From positions 12,162,465 through 12,226,464 of the forward strand of contig CM057149.1 of NCBI GenBank assembly GCA_029964075.1: a stretch of 64,000 nt of DNA, read 5' to 3'. Position numbers and translations under genes: made by a program. Below, in pieces: positions 9,909-61,499 of the stretch. The notes beneath the pieces are model-generated. The model was given only the letters and a program-made list of their open reading frames with translations. It was not told the origin of the DNA and did no database searches. This DNA is from Patiria pectinifera (taxonomy: Eukaryota > Echinodermata > Asteroidea > Valvatida > Asterinidae). Within the stretch, counting starts at the first letter, position 1. Each line of letters opens with the position of its first letter.

Positions 9909-10469
9909 CAACCTCGTCCCCAGGGTGTCGAGCAGTACGCGCCCACCACTACCTGCAACCTCGTCCCCAGGGTGTCGAGCAGTACGCGCCCACCACTACC
10001 TGCTCTCTCACCCTGGTATTGGATCATTTGCATGTGCAAGATTTTTGCAGACGTATGCAAATGAGGAACAGTCTGGTGCCTGGATATGCGTTACACATTA
10101 GCGTTTGTTTTTGTATGCGATGTCTGGGGTAAAAACAGAGTCAATTCGTAGCAGCGCAAGCACGGCGTGAGTTACGAAAACACGATTTTTGAAATCAAAC
10201 TGTTACGATCTTATCAAGATAAGATGCAGTATCATATTTCATATTAATATGAGCAAATTGGAAAGGAAATTAGTATTTTCGAGAAGGCGTGGACGAATGA
10301 TCGCGAAAACACGTACTGCACGTTGTGAATATATAGCACCAAGTACACGATAAAAATCCATTACTAGCCAATTGCGGTATCCAATCAGGATACAGGAAGA
10401 AAGTTTCCTATCCAGGGTTTACTATTGGAAACGCGGTTGGAAATAAAGTAAGCACTGGGGACGAGGTTG
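9909..10469 (+). mobile_element. Non-autonomous DNA transposon, 9-bp-TSD family, copy 2
   Basis: It has ends CAACCTCG...CGAGGTTG with AGTACACCC duplicated at 9900-9908 and 10470-10478. The first roughly 49 bases are tandemly doubled (9909-9957 and 9958 onward), which other copies lack. It ends 170 bases before the TRMU start codon, so it forms much of the proximal upstream region of that gene. Confidence 0.88.
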
Positions 10470-13700: not shown

Positions 13701-16700
13701 TAAAATTTGTCACCGGAAAATGTTTAAGTACAGAAAACAGTAACTGCGCATGTTCAGTGCATATCCGGCAAACTAACGTTTACTGAAGGTTTGTCGTCTC
13801 CGGCAAAATATCCACTGCCTTATTTTTATACAATGTTATATCAGCAGATCAGACACCACAATATAATTGTCTTTTTAAATGCTTGATTTCTAGTATAATT
13901 AGCCTACTGCCTGAAAGTCACAGAAAACTCACCAAAATGAAGAGGAAAACTTGCTTGTTTAATTGATGCTATTCATTTTGTAGCCCGACTGCGTCTGGCC
14001 GTACAGTACTATCGCAAGCTCTGTAGTACGGCCAGACGCCCGATGCTTCCACAGAGACTGAATTTTGTTGGCCGCCTATGTAGCGATTTTGCTACATCTT
14101 TCGATTGCGATTATCTTTTCATCCAGGACACAAATTTCCAAAGTTAAGGTTCGTAGTCGTAGAGCAACTCATACCTTTTCGAAAAAACGTTGTTTGGTCT
14201 CAATATTTTCATCCATCTGGCCACAAGACGAATTTCAGTCATCAGATTCCACAAATATCGTCCCCCATGCGATCCCCATGCGATTTCAAAATGGCGGCCG
14301 CGCTGTAATGTATGCAATATGCAGGCACGCCCGCGCAAACTCATGAATATGCATAAACAGTCTGTGATGTATGACCTCGTGTTTTTGGACGTACGGCCCC
14401 GCCGCACGCACGTCCAAAAATACGAGGTCATACGTCACAGACTAATTATACATATTCATGAGTTTGCGCGGCGCGCCTGCATATTGCATACATTACAGCG
14501 CGGCCGCCATTTTGAAATCGCATGGGGGACGATATTTGTGGAATCTGATGACTGAAATTCGTCTTGTGGCCAGATGGATGAAAATATTGAGACTAAACAA
14601 CGTTTTTTCGAAAAGGTATGAGTTGCTCTACGACTGCAAACCTGAACTTTGGAAATTTGTGTCCAGGATGAAAAGATAATGGCGATCGAAAGATGTAGCA
14701 AAATCGCTACATCGGCGGCCAACAAAATTCAGTCTCTGTGGAAGCATCGGGCGTCTGGCCGTACTACAGAGCTTGCGATAGTACTGTACGGCCAGACGCA
14801 GTCGGGCTATTCATTTTGATTCAATTTACGTGCAATTTGAAGGAAAATTTGATCGGTGAAATTCTATTTTGCGACAGAATTTTTTTTCGTGGAAGTGGCC
14901 ATTTTGTTTTTTCAACACTTGATCCGTGTTCTCGTTTTTATTCGTTGTTCGCGCGAGAGTTCAGTTTATGTAGTTTTTATTGTAAGATTTGGATAGAAAA
15001 TGAATGTGGCTTTCTGATGGTACCAAATTTGGCGATTGTGATGCATTTTTAAGATTAGAAAATGGACTTGTTTTAGTGAAAAAATGTGAAGCAAAAATTA
15101 AAATGGGGTTTACATGGTTTATGATTTAGGGAACTTTGGAGTCTTCCAAAGCCAATGGTGTTCTTTACTTTCATGTTTTTAATCAAATTTTTCTCTGATA
15201 AATAATTTTTTTAGTACCCAGTACTTTAAAAAATAGTAGGCCTAATCTGTGGCTTTAGAGGATTTATTTTTGAAATCTTGAATAAAGTCTGAGAACCATG
15301 CAATTGATAGTCTGGTTCCAACTGCCAAAGATCCTGACGTTGTGTTCCTTGAAGAATCCATAATGGTAGTTTTGGGGCAGAATGTGTGGGGCAGTACATG
15401 TGGGAGTGAAAAGCAGGGCAGTTTTGGGCAGTACACGGACTCTGTGTAAAGCTATGTAAGGCGAAGTAAAAAAAAACCAAGTTTCTCGTCCCCGCCCGCT
15501 TCCTTTTTGGAGGCCGCCTGGATTTTTTCATTATTTTTTATTTTTGAAAAATGTAGTAGAAAAACACCGAAAAAGTCTACAAATTCATCGGAAAATAAAT
15601 ACCAATACCAGTACAACTCTAAATGACACTGTAAATAATTTCAGTTCTCTTGTCCAACTTGTCTTTCATCTTTAAAAGTGTCTTTGAACAGTGGAACACC
15701 AACGGTTGCAGGAAATTTTGAAAAGCGGTCATCTTGAAAAAAATAAAAAATAAAAAATAAAAAGCCCCGCTTCCTCCCTTTTTAAAAAAAACCCTGGACG
15801 AGAAACTATTTTTTTTTTTACTCGGCCTAATCTTTGCCGTTTGCCCTAGGATACAGAGTGACGGGGCTCTTCATGCGCAACTGGGATGCATTGGATGAGA
15901 CGGGAGTGTGTACAGCAGATCAGGATGAGGAAGATGCCCAGTATGTTTGCCAGAAACTGCAGATCCCCTTCCATCAGGTCAACTTTGTCAAGGAGTATTG
16001 GCACGATGTCTTCAGGTATGATCCCTGACTACATTGTTAAATGTACCTGTCATACAGAGTTGTAACAAGTCACTGATTTTTGTGACTCGAGTTGAGTCAT
16101 TTTAAGGAAGTGACTCGAGTCAAGTCGAGTCATTAGATCCAGAAGGTTGAGTGAAGTTGAGTCGAGTCACAATGTGTGATTGAGTCGAGTCAAATTTATG
16201 CTCGAGTCAATTCGAGTCACTGATATTTGGACACCATCTAATGAATTACAGAATGGATGAAGGAACACAAGCAATCAGAATATTATGAAGATCAAAAGAC
16301 TTAAAATATGATGTGTGGTACCCAATGTGACAGTTTCTGGTGGATTTCTCAACCAACGATCGACGTAACAGTCAACAAGAAGTGAAACTGCGATTTTGTC
16401 TTGGATTTTTCTTATTCCCTTGCAATTTTCTCTTTTTGTAATAATTTGTACATCCCCAAGATATACCTTGGTCTCAAGTATTGATCCCTCCAATATTTTT
16501 ATGTTGGAATCATAATTTATGCTCAACACAGCTTTTTATGTTGTCTTATAATTGACAGTTTTGCTGAAAATTCCGCTGGCTTTTTTCACTGCTAAAAATT
16601 GCTGCAGTGTCATGCAAGCAAAAATGGGATTTTCAATGTTTTCCCCGAAAAAAAACATTATTTGGATATTGAGTGACCAAGACCTTTGAGAAGTGGCTGC

Positions 16701-19700
16701 AAAAACTTAGTTTTGGTGATATTCGGATAAATGCGCAGTATTTTCAACATTAAAGAACAATTTTTTGATCATTTGGTTGCAGTGAATTGCTGAAACAGTA
16801 CCAGGGAGGCATTACACCTAACCCAGACATCCTGTGCAACAAGCACATCAAGTTTGATCGGCTGTTGCGCCACAGCCGTGACGTACTCGGTGCTGATGCT
16901 TTGGCCACGGGCCACTATGCAAGGACCAATGTCGGAGAGACGATACTGGATCATGGCTGGGAGTCCAAGCCACAACGTAATTGATGCTGTTTTCTATAAA
17001 AATTGTCTCGATTTGACCATCATTGAAGGCAAAATATTATGCTGTACATGTACATGTACGTGTAGGATCATTTGCTTTTCATGTGTTTTGCTCATTTCCA
17101 ATAACTAGTGCAGTGCCCGTCTGTTACAACTGATAATGTAGTAACCGACCGATAACGTATCACCAACCGATAATGTATCACAAATTGACCGATATTGTAT
17201 CACTAACCGATAATGTACCAAAAATTGACTGATAGTGTAGTATAATTTGTATCCGATAATGTATCACGTGTTGACGGATAATGTAACTACAAAATAACTG
17301 TATCCGATAATGTATCACCACGGAACGGATACTGTATCAACCGATAATGTATCAAAAATCAACCGATAATGTATCAGTATGGGGAAAAGGTGTACACAAA
17401 TGTTTGTTTTATGTCCGATTATCCCGCCCCACGTTTTGACCAGGGAGGGGGGTCTGAGCAAGTTGATCACCACCACCCCCATTATTTTGTATTTAGAGAA
17501 AAAGGGCAGATTTTGAGGTATTTTTCAAACTTTCCAACCGACGAAATGTATTAAATAGTACTGAGAAAGGAAGAAAAAATACAAATAGCTTGAAATGCGC
17601 TGGGACGTCTGTATCATGAACAGCGCCCCCAGTGTCATGTGGTCTCCAGCAAGGCCCCCCCCCCCCCTTCGTTTGTATTTCACGGCCAGGACTTCTTTTT
17701 TTTTTAGCTATCCCCCATCCTCAAGTCCCAAGCACAGATTTACGCTACTGTTGCAGGGGCGTATCCAGGAATTTTCGCGGGGGGGGGGGGGTTCATCAGC
17801 AAAACAATCTGAAAATTACACGGGATTTTTTTCCGGACACTTTGCCTCCGTAAAATCAAAAACTTGGGGAAGGGGGGTATCATATTTCAATAGGGGACGC
17901 TGTTCAAATTTGACAATCATTAACACTGGATTACAGAATGGTGTAAAAATACACCCTAACTAAGCTGCCTCCGTCCGTATTTTGAACAAGCGGACATTAT
18001 ACCAGTATTTTTTTTGGGGGGGGGTGTCACAGCAGAGGGGGGGGGGTGTGCATTATTTTTTTAAGGAATTTGTATGCAATTTGTTTTGGGACACAGCTGG
18101 GGGAACCCCCCCCCCCCTGGGTCCGCGCCTGTGTTGGCCTCAAGGAAGCGGCAGGCTCGTGACGTTTGGACTCCAAACTGTGTGGGTTGAACAAACTGAA
18201 GTCAGTGGGTAGACAAATAACACATGACGTCACATGCCAACGGTGCCCCCCTAAAAAAAAGCTGGGGCATTATTTTGTACGGTACAGTAATATTGCGTAC
18301 ATGATTGTAGGATTTTATCAGCGCTCCCCGTTGAAAATATGGCACGACCCCCCTCCCCCCTCATCGACCCCCTCCCCCTCATCCCCTCCCCTCAGCCACC
18401 ATCCCCCCACCCCCATCCCCCAATAAGTGAGCAGTAATGCTGTGATTGTGCCCTTTTCAAATCTGTAAGAAAAAAAATCGACTGGGGTCGACAAGGGACC
18501 CATGAAGCTTGATCGCATCTAGTCTATCTTCGACGATTGCCGCCTAAATCCGGTAAACTTGTTACATTGTATCTTTTGTGACAGCTCAAGTTACATGATC
18601 ATTTAAGATGGTAGTTTTGCTATACACATGCCTCGCCACTCGTATGTGTTCCTGGTTCATGCACAGCGCGTATATTTTGAATGATGCAAAGTTATTGGGG
18701 AAGGGAATAGTCTGGGAGACCATCGCAAGTTAAATTGAACGTATGCGCGCGCCGACGTTGCCTGGCGCTCATGCGAAGACGCTGCTGCTAATGATGTAAT
18801 AGCCACATTCTGGCCAACCTCGTCCCCAGTGCTTACTTTATTTCCAACCGCGTTTCCAATAGTAAACCCTGGATAGGAAACTTTCTTCCTGTATCCTGAT
18901 ACCGCAATTGGCTAGTAATGGATTTTTATCGTGTACTTGGTGCTTTATATTCACAACGTGCAGTACGTGTTGTTCGCGATCATTCATCCATGCCTTCTCG
19001 AAAATACTAATTTCCTTTCCAATTTGCTCATATTAATATGAAATATGATACTGCATGTTGTCTTGATAAGATCGTAACAGTTTGATTTCAAAAATCGTGT
19101 TTTCGTAACTCACGCCGTGCTCGCGCTGCTACGAATTGACTCTGTTTTTACCCCAGACACCGCATACAAAAACAAACGGTAATGTGTAACGCATATCCAG
19201 GCACCAGACTGTTCCTCATTTGTATACGTCTGCAAAAATCTTGCACATGCATATGATCCAATACCAGGGTGAGAGAGCAGGTAGTGGTGGGCGCGTACTG
19301 CTCGACATTCTGGGGACGAGGTTGCATTCTGGCACATTCTGGAAGTGGTGTGGAACTTTGCGCGCGAACCAGTACAGTACAAGTACGCACACGCTGTGTC
19401 CCGTCCATTGATCTCCATACGGAGATCAATGGTCCCGTACGTCCATGGGGCTCTCAAAAGTGGTAAAACGCGCCCTCTTGTGTCGCAGCACGTAGCCCAT
19501 ATGGAGGCCAAGTGTCCGGAGAAAAGAACTTGTCCACATTTCGGCGCGGATGTGCGAGTGCGGTTACCCCCCCCCCTTGACATCAAAAGCTGGATACGCC
19601 ACTAGCCTAGGCCCACTTGGAAGTAGAGCGTCTCCAAACCAGAGCAACTCCCTACCTCCCAAATTAAAAAAAAAATTCTTAATGATAAACTTTCTCGAGT

Positions 19701-22700
19701 GGGGACTTATCATAGTAAAGGCACTTATTAGACTTTAATTAATTTGCAATATTTCCACCTTTTCCCAATACTGATACATTATCGGTTGATTTTTGATACA
19801 TTATCGGTTGATACAGTATCCGTTCCGTGGTGATACATTATCGGATACACTTATTTTGTAGTTACATTATCCGTCGACACGTGATACATTATCGGATACA
19901 AATTTTACTACACTATCAGTCAATTTTTGGTACATTATCGGTTAGTGATACAATATCGGTAAATTTGTGATACATTATCGGTTGGTAATACGTTATCGGT
20001 TGGTTACTACATTATCAGTTGTAACACCGTCTCAAATGTGCATGTTCGGGAAGGGCAAATTCCTTGGCCGCTGGTACTGCTTGCAGCGTTTTGGAGAACT
20101 TCTCGTGCAAACAACGCACGCGATTCAATGGTGTTTTTTTCACAGGTTGAACGCTTACGTACACTCACAGGTTGAACGCACATTTTTTAATGTGGACGGA
20201 ATTATAGTAAGAAACCGTAGAAAAAAACTGTGCTATTGTTTATCCCATTGTTGGTAATGGAATAGCCCCCCCCCCCCACAGTAAAGTGACCATTGTTGAA
20301 AATGGAATAGCCCCCAAGGTAGCTCTTTGCACACAATTGTGACATCACACAACTCAGTGGCGCCATACTCACGTGTGGTGTTGCGTCCTATGGTTGCGTC
20401 ATATTGAGCACGCGCGCTTTATAGCTTTACATGACGTAAACAATTGAAAAGAACGGCAGTGCGTGGTGTTATGTTCTACATCTAAGCTATACACTGCCAT
20501 GTTTGCCTCAGAAAATGCTGTTTTTTGGGCAGCTTTTTCGAGAACCGCTCGTCCAAACCACTTCAAACTTAGCACTGCATATTCTGTGGTCCCGAGCAAT
20601 ATACCCACCGATTTTCAACTTCATACGGTGCCCGGTTCTTGAGATAATCAAAATACAGACAGACACACAGACAGACAGACAGAGATTTCCGGAATTACAG
20701 TTAGATAACACCATCTTTCAAAATCCAAAGAAGAATGTTCAAAACCTAACCTGATGAAGTTTCAGTTCAGTGGCAGATATTGGAAAGCTGTGCACAAAAC
20801 ACAGGGACGTCACTTTTGGTAAATCATTTGAATTGGAGGATTTACAAGAGCAGTTTACGTTTTGGGAGGCAACATATAGATTTCACAGTTGTGAAATCTG
20901 AGCTTTAAAAGTTGATTTCAGCTTCTTTTTTTTGGGGGGGGGGATTTTCAGCTTGTTCCCCTCACTTGCTGTGTACAAAAGTGTAGGAGATTTCCAAAGT
21001 TCAGCTTTTTTTACACCTTTTTTCAGCTATTTTCAGCTATTTTCAGCTATATTTTTTATCAGTGGTCACTCACACCCCTGAATTTTTTTTTTATACATCA
21101 TAGTAATTGGATGACTTGAGTCTTCGGGACAATTTTTTTCACATTATTTCCTCTTGCAGTGATAAAAGTAAATTTCCGCTCCGTAGATAAAGGTATTTTG
21201 TTTTGTAGTTGGTTTAAAATTTGGCGAATCTGTGACCAGGAGCATGCAAGCATTGACGCAATACAACCGTGCACGGTTGCTCTTATTCGTCAGTTCAGTG
21301 CTTGACACTGTGTAGCTACAATCGGCTGAATGAGAACGTGTCCCGGACGCTGATTTCAGGTGCAAGACAAAACATGACTCGGCAACTTTGAATTGAACCC
21401 GAGATCCTAGAATATTGATTTCTCGGAATATATACACAGAGCTCAAACATAATCAGGTTAGTTGTTTAAGCACTGTCTTTAGATTTTGAGCACTTTTGTT
21501 GCTTCAAACCAAAAACAATTCACAAATGACAAATGATTAAACCTACCTTTATTAGGTATGCTGATGTTATGGGTAAAAAATGTGGGCTGTTCTTATTGTT
21601 TTCCATTGTGAACGATTTATATTCAGACATGTCAGAAGGCCATTGCCCAAACGTACATGTACATGTAGCTCAGACAAGGTGTGTGACTCATTTATATTGG
21701 CTTTGTCAGGATTTGATTCAAGGTTCAAAACTAACACAAATTGTTGATTCTTTCTGTCACATGAAGCGGTAAAGTTGCTACAAGCGGTTGACTCCACCAA
21801 AGACCAGACGTTCTTCCTCTCGCAAATGTCCCAGCATGCATTGCAGAGGACGCTGTTTCCGATTGGTGACTTGACCAAGGGTGTTGTCAGGGAGATTGCG
21901 AGGGGGGCGGGGCTGGAGCGGACTGTCAAACGGAAGGAGGTGAGTGTGGGGATTGTGAGTGACATTGAGTCATATGTTGAGTATCATCCGGGTAATTTGG
22001 TGGTTACTCACGTTACATTTAGATTTGTATTTATTTATTTTAATTTTATTTACGTCATCTTTAGTGAGGGTAGCTCCAATCAGTGCAGGGCACTGCTTTC
22101 CATGGAGGCCCTCAATATGAGAAATATGAAACCCATTATGTAGCACCTTTAAGGGTTACAAGGTGCTGCGGCGCATATTGCGGCCACTGCCAGAAACACC
22201 GGGGCAAACCCCTTCTCTTAGCGATAAGTGTTACTGGGGTCTTTAATGTGCATTACACAACACACGGGACCTACGGCTTTACATGTATGTCCCATCCGAA
22301 GGACTAAGCAATAATGGTTAAGTGCCTTGCTCAAGGGCACAAGTGTCCGGGCCTGGGCTCGAACCCACGTCATTGTTGCCTCTGAAACACCAGAGCATGA
22401 GTCCAGTGTTCTTAACCGCTAGGCCATGACACTCCAGTGATGGGGTCTTCCAAATTATAAAATCTCTAGCTAGAGGGATACATTCCTAACTCTTATTACA
22501 TGTAAATCAAACATGTATAAGAAACTTATAAATAACTCTTGTTACTTGCAAATCATACATGTATAAGAAACTGAAATAAAAAAACACTTTTGCATAAGGG
22601 TTCTTGTCAATAAAAAGTTCGCTGACTGTCAGTGAATGTATGCTGAATTCTGGCGTTGCCAAGGGCCAGCAGTTCGTGAACTTTCGCCACCGATGTGTAC

Positions 22701-37088: not shown

Positions 37089-59026
<21,938 letters not shown>

Positions 59027-59522: not shown

Positions 59523-61499
59523 GTGGGCAATTCCACACCAAAGTGGACATGACACCAAAAAATTCAAATACATGTGACTTAAACAAATTTGGCATCAAAT
59601 GAAAGCTAAAAGCCTATATTTTCAAGATTTGAAGTCGGAATTTAATTTTTTATACATTTCGGTACCAAAAACTAGGATTATGTAACAATCCTGTTTTAAT
59701 CCTAAAAATGTGATTAATAGTGATATGAAAGTATTCTACCAATAGACACACAAAAATATGTACTAATGCCATCAGTTTCTGTCATGAGAAAGTATTTGTC
59801 TTGAAAAACCGACTAAAACTTGTTTTGAACATTTTGCGTAATTTGTTTCGCTTCAGTGACTTCTAATATTTCAGCCTTCAAAAATGTCCTTCCGTTACCG
59901 AAAAAATACATATTTTTAATTTATTTTTAAAACTTGCAGTATGAATGCATTGAAAGTTATTGTGCAAAGCAAGTTTAGGTAGGCCTTCAATATGACATTA
60001 TAACTGACACTGCTGTACTTCTCGTTTTTTAATTACAATTAATTAAATCACGTCCTTCCGTTACCAAATTGGTAACGGAAGGACGGTAACGGAAGGACAA
60101 ATCGTATTTTTATCAAATGTTACGAAATTTGCGCTCATGTTTGAAAAATGAAAATCACTGCAAATACATGCATGTATAATGAGCATTGAAAGGACATTCA
60201 TGTGACCCACCTTCACAAAAGCGGGATAAGCAGGGCAAGGTGTTTATTACAATTTGAAGGCACAGGCATGTACAACATGTACAATGTACATGTACATATA
60301 TGCCGATGTACCAGTACTTGTACATGTATGGAGTTGTTGCAGAAAATCAAATCATAAAGTTGCTGCCATCAGCATTCATGGACAATAGAGAAAGATATGA
60401 ATTCTGTGAAGCCATTCCAGAAGCAAATTAAGTCAAAAATGAGATGGCAGAAAGTTACGGTACTTTGGGGCACTTTCATTCAATTTACATGTGCAAGATA
60501 TGTGAGGTGCAGTCTTTGACAAATTATGCCCAAGTTAACAACTTCAGTTTGGATGTGTATAAATTAATTGTTACTACTCTAAATCATTGTAATTTGATTT
60601 CAAACATTGATTTTAGAGTTCAATTAAAAGCAACACCTAACTGAAGCCATCAGTTCTACCGGTAGATGTTTTGACCTTAAATGTACATGTAGGCTGGTCG
60701 CCCCCCCCACCCTTTAGGTAAACCTTTGAACCTACCGGTATTATTATTAAAAGTTGTTGGTGAACATGTAACCAATATACTCAAGAGTTCAAATACTGTG
60801 TATTTAAACTTTTAAGGATTGAGGTGATGGGTTTGAAGTCTATTTCTGTAGTAGTCTTGTGTTCGTGAATTATGTGTTTTGGGTTGTTTTCGTTTTTCTT
60901 TTGTTATCATTAATTACTAGGCTTCTATCTTTATCTCAATAGTTTCTTGGGTATAATTATTTATGCCAGGTCTGCATATTGTTGATTTCACATTCAGTTA
61001 CACATTTAAGCAATTTGTTGCACTTGTATAATTAGTATAAATTCACATTTTGTTCATGCTATAATTGAGTAAACCTTTTGTCCTTCCGTTACCGTCCTTC
61101 CGTTACCAAATTATAATCTGCTTAAAACGTTGTAATTATATAACCGAAACACTTAAAGTCAAATGAAAGGCGGTATAGTATAGATAAAGCTTCAGGGATT
61201 CCATTTCCTACCTTTAAAATATAATTGCCCCACAAAAATCACAGAGTTTTTGCAAAACGCGAGTAAGTTGGAAAACCCTTGTCCGTTTTACCGTCCTTCC
61301 GTTACCGACCTCATTAATATTCATAATTCATAAACGGGAGGCATTCATGCCCCCCAAAAGTGTGGAAAATGAAAGAAGCATTATAGCAATACAATTGTGA
61401 AATTTGTTTGCTGTAACTATGAACAGTGTCTGTGATACACACATTTGAAATTTTGTTTAATGAGTGAAAACGTCCTTCCGTTACCGTGGAATTGCCCAC
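59523..61499. mobile_element. 2-kb non-autonomous element with GTGGGCAATTCCAC ends and eight internal 14-mers
   Basis: Identical inverted ends GTGGGCAATTCCAC at 59523-59536 and 61486-61499. GTCCTTCCGTTACC occurs eight times: plus at 59887, 60052, 61080, 61094, 61293 and 61472; minus at 60071 and 60085. No coding region. Target duplication uncertain (ATGTA on both sides, offset by one base). Confidence 0.75.

Follow-up and report, generated by a model that had tools for sequence, protein, structure and literature searches.

The foldback element in the window

The DNA described here (the window) is a stretch of 64,000 nucleotides from the starfish Patiria pectinifera. The contig is labeled C21 in the coordinates used below, and the window corresponds to C21:12162465-12226464 in the 613.5-Mb genome assembly. 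At positions 17122-20026, the window contains a foldback element, with two long inverted arms around a non-coding middle (Table 1). This element is very probably a non-autonomous, internally deleted member of a family of cut-and-paste DNA transposons, the long copies of which encode an enzyme with integrase and OTU domains; this enzyme would bind the arm units and mobilize the element in trans.

The two arms are 271 nt each, 97% complementary (7 sites differ), and separated by 2,363 nt. Each arm has 12 GATAATGTATCA-type units, located at arm positions 11, 30, 48, 70, 88, 110, 134, 156, 185, 207, 222, and 244. The offsets are identical and the order is mirrored in the two arms, confirming the original prediction of a foldback with arms built from arrays of a 12-mer. 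The predicted boundaries also hold, with TGTTACAAC and GTTGTAACA at the ends and the 5-bp CCGTC at both flanks. With up to three mismatches, 11 units are found once the first 17 bases of the arm are left aside; 1,000 dinucleotide shuffles average 0.7 units and never exceed 4. With up to four mismatches, 12 units are found in the arm; the average for 1,000 plain shuffles is 1.8, and none has more than 7. The units were also considered as copies of the terminus. There is one good case, a 17-mer at arm position 212 with 3 mismatches (equalled by 3 of 1,000 shuffles); the remaining places need at least 6 mismatches, and this relationship is not claimed.

As had been noted earlier, the window copy has no coding region. 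Its longest stop-to-stop frame is 163 aa, and a genome search with the transposase of the family (56 candidates scored) gives no match in it. In an alignment to a 10.4-kb, gene-bearing copy on contig C4 (see below), element positions 1-1224 and 1275-1529 match the end upstream of the transposase gene at 83-86%, and window positions 19330-20026 match the end downstream of the gene at 92%.

A 510-bp miniature inverted-repeat transposable element (MITE) is nested in the window copy, as a result of which this copy has a segment that is missing from the other compared copies; these have no MITE at the insertion point. The foldback itself is therefore about 2.39 kb. A 47-bp tandem repeat at window positions 9909-10003 has an end sequence similar to the CAACCTCGTCCCCAG ends of this MITE.

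Table 1. Feature coordinates of the foldback element, in window positions.
Feature	Position	Strand	Basis
Left target-site duplication CCGTC	17117..17121	.	Flank reading
Left arm: terminus TGTTACAAC and 12 inward-facing GATAATGTATCA-type units	17122..17392	+	
Left-arm unit starts	17132, 17151, 17169, 17191, 17209, 17231, 17255, 17277, 17306, 17328, 17343, 17365		
Non-coding interior	17393..18650	.	Alignment to the 10.4-kb C4 copy
Approximate deletion junction: ~8.1 kb of the C4 autonomous copy missing, transposase gene included	18651..18672	.	
Non-coding interior, 95% match to the opposite end of the autonomous copy	18673..18792	.	C4 alignment
9-bp duplication CATTCTGGC of the nested MITE, left	18806..18814	.	
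Nested 510-bp MITE, inverted ends CAACCTCGTCCCCAG, outside the foldback proper	18815..19324	.	
9-bp duplication CATTCTGGC of the nested MITE, right	19325..19333	.	
Non-coding interior	19330..19755	.	C4 alignment
Right arm: mirror of the left arm, 12 minus-strand units, terminus GTTGTAACA	19756..20026	-	
Right target-site duplication CCGTC	20027..20031	.	Flank reading

A large mobile family and its target sites

The window foldback belongs to a large mobile family. With at most one mismatch, the terminal 19-mer has 1,060 matches in the genome (542 + 518), as compared to 2 (2 + 0) for the reversed pattern. The 14-mer unit has 2,249 matches, with 2 for the control. Among 100 listed ends, most of the copies are about 0.3, 1.3-1.45, 2.2-2.4, or 2.75 kb in size, and a few are longer. 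Four apparently long copies (L031, L032/L033, L034, and L047) were set aside as cases of nested insertion or erosion. The copy at L032/L033 (C1:5908279-5925699) is split by ~14.6 kb of inserted DNA, and its outer duplication GGCTG is intact. At L034, one family copy is inserted into another, with a CCCCC duplication that is ambiguous since the tract is C-rich. No description of this foldback family was found among the literature matches listed, and the listed matches to the letters of the motif are unrelated by title.

The tandem-like arrangement of the arms could be that of an ordinary 12-mer satellite flanking something by chance. However, among 100 listed of the 2,249 unit matches, there is no cluster of more than 5 units, and at least 97 are located, by reading, in arms beside an end that had already been seen. 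The other three (C1:11379210-11379311) face a listed end ~2.1 kb away, their own end being unread. Moreover, target duplications flank the ends at which the arms are located, which leaves the satellite explanation with a probability close to nil.

Both flanks were read for 37 copies, and duplications were sought up to 8 bp. Perfect duplications of 5 bp are found in 22 copies and of 6 bp in 7, while about 0.04 five-base matches are expected by chance from simple arithmetic. Left out of this count are L035:658 and L047, where the second end is unclear, the second members of duplicated loci (L036:6465, L043:44, and C5:4289405), copies already present under another name, and the autonomous copies on C22, C7, and C20 (two copies), which were read later or had one end only at the time. 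The center of the duplication is G/C in all 22 of the five-base sites, and both central bases are G/C in all 7 of the six-base sites. Read on both strands, the target preference is palindromic, nASTn or nASSTn, with A at 23/44 and 9/14 of the second places, respectively.

A search for empty sites with a single copy of the pentamer had been proposed. For one other copy, located within repeated sequence, an unfilled paralogue aligns at 116 of 120 positions through the junction and has a single copy of the site; the empty site of the window copy itself was not found. A diverged repeat at L042 and L043 (C4:1178500-1188400 and 1426000-1431000) has received insertions of at least two family copies.

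Long copies with an integrase-OTU transposase

It had also been proposed to look for full-length relatives with a transposase, and these are present in the genome. There are seven transposase copies, with pieces 93-99% identical to the frame on C4, and all seven are located between the same arms, in elements of 9.2-11.2 kb (the end regions of all seven were read). Both arms are within ~1.2 kb of the predicted place in each case, the right arm of C20:16734307 being found only in a wider fetch. Perfect duplications flank five of the seven (AAGGG, GAGGTG, AGCTC, GGTGCG, and ACACA), and both arms of the three autonomous copies that were measured have 12 units at the offsets of the window arms. The long members therefore combine the same arms with a transposase of the DDE integrase type, to which an OTU cysteine-protease-like domain is fused.

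The copy on C4 (10.4 kb, duplication AAGGG) has both interior flanks of the short element, placed around ~8.1 kb of extra DNA. Its 806-aa frame matches the Pfam families rve (1.8e-10) and OTU (3.9e-9), both above the cut-off. Matches to the NCBIfam models IS481 (7.5e-29, 101 bits as compared to a cut-off of 224) and IS3 (1.8e-14) are below the family cut-offs. The best match in the Protein Data Bank is the integrase of prototype foamy virus (PFV), at 3.2e-12. D113, D176, and E211 form the catalytic triad, and 34 residues separate the last two. The Cys and His motifs of the OTU domain are present as well, and the OTU part has no significant match in the Protein Data Bank (best 0.14). The H2C2 zinc finger has no Pfam match in the transposase, and the zinc ligands are absent where the gypsy row has them. 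The GPY/F region has no clean alignment with gypsy. In a plasmid search, the identity is 23-32% in the best 15 of 212 records.

Judged by eye, an upstream exon can be joined to the C4 gene through candidate GT..AG boundaries. A second frame in this copy has a weak, F-box-like match (0.003-0.02, below the Pfam cut-off). In the copy on C14, the OTU part, the acidic repeats, and the F-box-like segment form one continuous frame, preceded by a single TGA that follows the integrase part.

Among 150 listed places with a match to the integrase profile, many of which have frames of more than 1,000 aa as in gypsy, none was seen by eye to have a listed end less than 10 kb away on C1, C2, C3, and the first 2.2 Mb of C4. 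Between about 0.9 and 23 Mb, contig C7 seems by eye to be rich in integrase and OTU matches compared to other contigs, among the matches listed.

The short element is an internal-deletion derivative of the long one. The upstream region and part of the downstream region are kept, and the candidate start codon and the gene frames are located in the missing stretch. Internal deletion is the usual origin of non-autonomous elements. The enzyme that moves the window foldback is most likely the integrase-OTU transposase.

Conservation of the arms

Seven copies from the 2.3-2.75-kb classes show a divergence of 1.6% in the arms and 3.9% in the interior, and the interior is above the arms in all 21 pairs. 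The lower divergence of the arms fits selection for mobile ends, and homogenization could give the same result.

The near-identity of the arms had been ascribed to recent activity or to arm-to-arm conversion. Another possibility is that the arms are not transposon ends, and are homogenized by ongoing conversion between them or represent a slippage palindrome. The 97% arm identity in the window copy would agree with this, as would the other palindromes in the window (see below). In addition, the within-copy identity in three autonomous copies (0.970-0.974) is above the average for different copies (0.948, 7 arms), which leaves room for conversion in these three. In eight short copies, however, the within-copy identity of 0.9829 equals the between-copy identity of 0.9830 (112 pairs). 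Six of the eight are among the 40 best arm matches, and as a result the level of identity is biased upward and both figures are perhaps high. After the addition of 26 best-match loci the values are 0.983 within and 0.989 between copies, with a few of these loci being the two arms of one copy, counted as different copies. The target duplications and the empty site also speak against this possibility, which is very unlikely overall. Of the two earlier suggestions, conversion at the level of the copy finds no support in the short copies. The near-identity of the arms looks family-wide, in agreement with a family that spread recently from a source whose own arms were nearly identical.

Model for transposition

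In the model proposed here, the transposase of the long copies would mobilize the short derivatives in trans. It would cut at the TG..CA ends and join these to the target with a stagger of 5-6 bp. Staggered joining is the known behavior of integrases. The 12 units in each arm may be reiterated binding sites for the helix-turn-helix-like region at the N-terminus of the transposase, and several subunits could mark the ends and bring them together. The TG..CA end and the first unit would form the cleavage site, with the inner units as possible enhancer sites. We infer binding of the arm units by analogy with Galileo, for which several transposase-binding sites per end were found by electrophoretic mobility shift assay; multiple sites are also noted for Sleeping Beauty in the part of that report compared here (PMC3688188).

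Several observations weigh against this model and the family assignment behind it. The N-terminal match to HTH_21 (0.0013) is below the Pfam cut-off, and the predicted structure of the transposase, with a mean predicted local distance difference test (pLDDT) score of 41.7, is too poor to use. An uninterrupted complete gene is not shown among the seven transposase copies: the C4 gene has a frame change inside the acidic repeats, the C14 gene has the one in-frame TGA, and the transposase match is split into 2-3 pieces in four of the seven. C20:31788651 has no duplication, and its left arm, 98% like the window arm, may be that of another copy; C20:16734307 has an imperfect duplication only. A perfect duplication is absent from 8 of the 37 copies. 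The duplications ACACA and GGTGCG, which were read later, break the rule of G/C centers, reducing it to 22/23 and 7/8. One of 10 arms counted has 11 units instead of 12. Finally, conservation is not clearly higher at the units than in the spacers, the difference being non-significant, which is of no help to the assignment of the units as binding sites. For near-identical arms (12 arms were dropped from this set, 4 as duplicates and 8 because they are broken or differ in size class), 40 of the 270 circular shifts score equally well, and for the older arms of shorter elements 10 of 109 do.

Comparison with other transposons

The overall architecture is that of a foldback element, and the enzyme is that of an integrase-like (Ginger/IS481-like) transposon, not of Mutator or P. 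In the sections of PMC4079207 compared, most foldbacks are apparently Mutator elements, Galileo being one of the exceptions, and an autonomous partner of Tetris was not found. A classical foldback, moved by a Mutator or P (Galileo) transposase, would have the same long inverted arms of iterated motifs and the same variable middle as seen in FB, Tetris, and Galileo (PMC4079207, PMC3688188). The likeness to FB and Tetris extends to array-built arms around a non-coding middle and a MITE relative sharing the ends (PMC4079207), and that to Galileo to the long, internally repetitive inverted ends (PMC3688188).

There are important differences, however, from these elements. The duplications are 5-6 bp here, and not 8-10 bp as reported for Tetris in the same sections (PMC4079207), bearing out the earlier remark that TG..CA ends with a 5-bp duplication fall outside the usual foldback groups. 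In FB and Tetris a Mutator transposase is presumed (PMC4079207), while an integrase gene is located between the arms in all seven transposase-bearing copies of this family (the Mutator and P families were not searched in the genome). Galileo has a P-type THAP transposase and arms of 0.5-1.2 kb, in the part of its description compared (PMC3688188). No THAP match is found in the proteins P0001 and P0002. A Mutator or P origin is thus extremely unlikely. The TU elements of sea urchins are generally described as foldbacks with short tandem repeats in the arms and 8-bp duplications, a likeness in the first respect. A sea urchin foldback is among the elements cited in the compared sections of PMC4079207.

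The transposase brings up another possibility, that of a plain member of the Ginger1 superfamily, with integrase and OTU domains and TGT..ACA ends. In the parts of PMC2836005 compared, Ginger1 has TGT..ACA ends (TGTTA here, in agreement with TGTNR), terminal inverted repeats of up to 270 bp (271-bp arms here), a transposase of the integrase type that has an OTU domain at its C-terminus in several families (OTU at 3.9e-9 here), introns in some genes (a candidate intron here), and non-autonomous copies. It is also the only group with both integrase and OTU in the literature compared (PMC2836005). Candidate YPYY-like residues are seen by eye in the upstream exon. In addition, the CCGTC of the window contains CCGT, and CCGT or its complement ACGG is present in 3 of the 29 duplications. 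This likeness had made Ginger1 the first lead, which was dropped since the duplications varied.

Against a Ginger1 assignment, the duplications there are 4 bp (CCGG or CCGT; PMC2836005), as compared to 5-6 bp, mostly nAS(S)Tn, here, and CCGG is contained in 0 of the 29. The H2C2 zinc finger of Ginger1 (PMC2836005) has no counterpart here, the HHCC ligands being absent. Ginger1 elements are 2.6-7 kb long, as compared to 9-11 kb for the long copies here, and iterated units like those in the present ends are not mentioned for Ginger1 ends in the text compared (PMC2836005). In a small, 15-row tree of the cores, which carries a long-branch warning and holds no Ginger sequence, the transposase and its relative on C11 (see below) group weakly (80/83) and are located outside the six gypsy-like rows from this genome (99/99). 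The family is filed outside Ginger1 because it has neither the 4-bp, CCGG-type duplication nor the H2C2 finger, and a plain Ginger1 member is rather unlikely.

Ginger2/TDD elements have an H2C2 finger and an AT-rich RTATAY target, while there is no H2C2 here and the centers are G/C in 29/29 (37-copy count). Their duplication is 4 bp, or 5 bp in TDD, and the 5-bp length alone would fit TDD.

The IS481EU and IS3EU/GingerRoot groups have IS481/IS3-like DDE cores without HHCC, as here, and IS481EU has TGT..ACA ends in part (PMC10045372, in the portion compared). The duplications of IS481EU, reported from parabasalids, are about 4, 15, or 25 bp (PMC10045372), as compared to 5-6 bp here, where matches of up to 8 bp were looked for. 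GingerRoot has 6-bp duplications and occasional TG..CA ends in the portions compared (PMC10045372, PMC12730594). The ends of IS3EU are TA..TA (PMC10045372), as compared to TG..CA here, where 6-bp duplications are found in just 7 of 37 copies. OTU is mentioned 0 times in the text of PMC10045372.

A tentative but quite possible interpretation is that the family represents a distinct lineage, perhaps of superfamily rank. It would be characterized by an HHCC-less DDE integrase with an OTU domain and an F-box-like tail, 5-6-bp duplications at palindromic sites, and independently evolved foldback ends with 12 recognition units per arm, and the relative on C11 would perhaps have been retained by the host. 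Foldback elements are otherwise often orphans, and here gene-bearing partners with the same arms are found in the same genome. The presence of these arms around an integrase-class gene suggests that array-built ends arose around an unrelated enzyme. As a result, the role of iterated end sites becomes testable with a retroviral-type integrase. The OTU domain within the transposase also raises the question of whether transposition is under ubiquitin control.

A single-copy relative on C11

At C11:6622600-6626900 (L060:1272-3329), there is a single-copy, unbroken frame of 685 aa, which is 42% identical to the transposase. The protein has the integrase domain together with both OTU motifs (Cys and His), and its C-terminus ends in a similar way. 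However, it has another residue in place of the second catalytic Asp and lacks roughly 100 residues beyond the core. There is no F-box match in this protein, and the reading of 4.3 kb at the locus revealed no arm. This relative may have been domesticated, that is, kept by the host as a gene. Its potential interest lies in the OTU motifs being kept while the integrase is altered. The Imagin gene of crustaceans is reported to be domesticated from Ginger1, in the part of PMC12863088 compared.

Other features of the window

Several other inverted repeats are located in the window. A near-perfect palindrome at 13981-14809 has 293-nt arms at 97%, with further inverted arms within. Other long, close inverted repeats are found at 41677-42144, 402-614, and 38638-38842, with arms of 61-120 nt at 95-99%. 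At 59886-61331, the 14-mer GTCCTTCCGTTACC recurs in both orientations, and its pairs form 36-bp inverted arms (60066-60101 and 61077-61112) that are 975 nt apart, perhaps another element with iterated end motifs. A frame at 1139-2074 matches the Major Facilitator Superfamily (2.4e-15).

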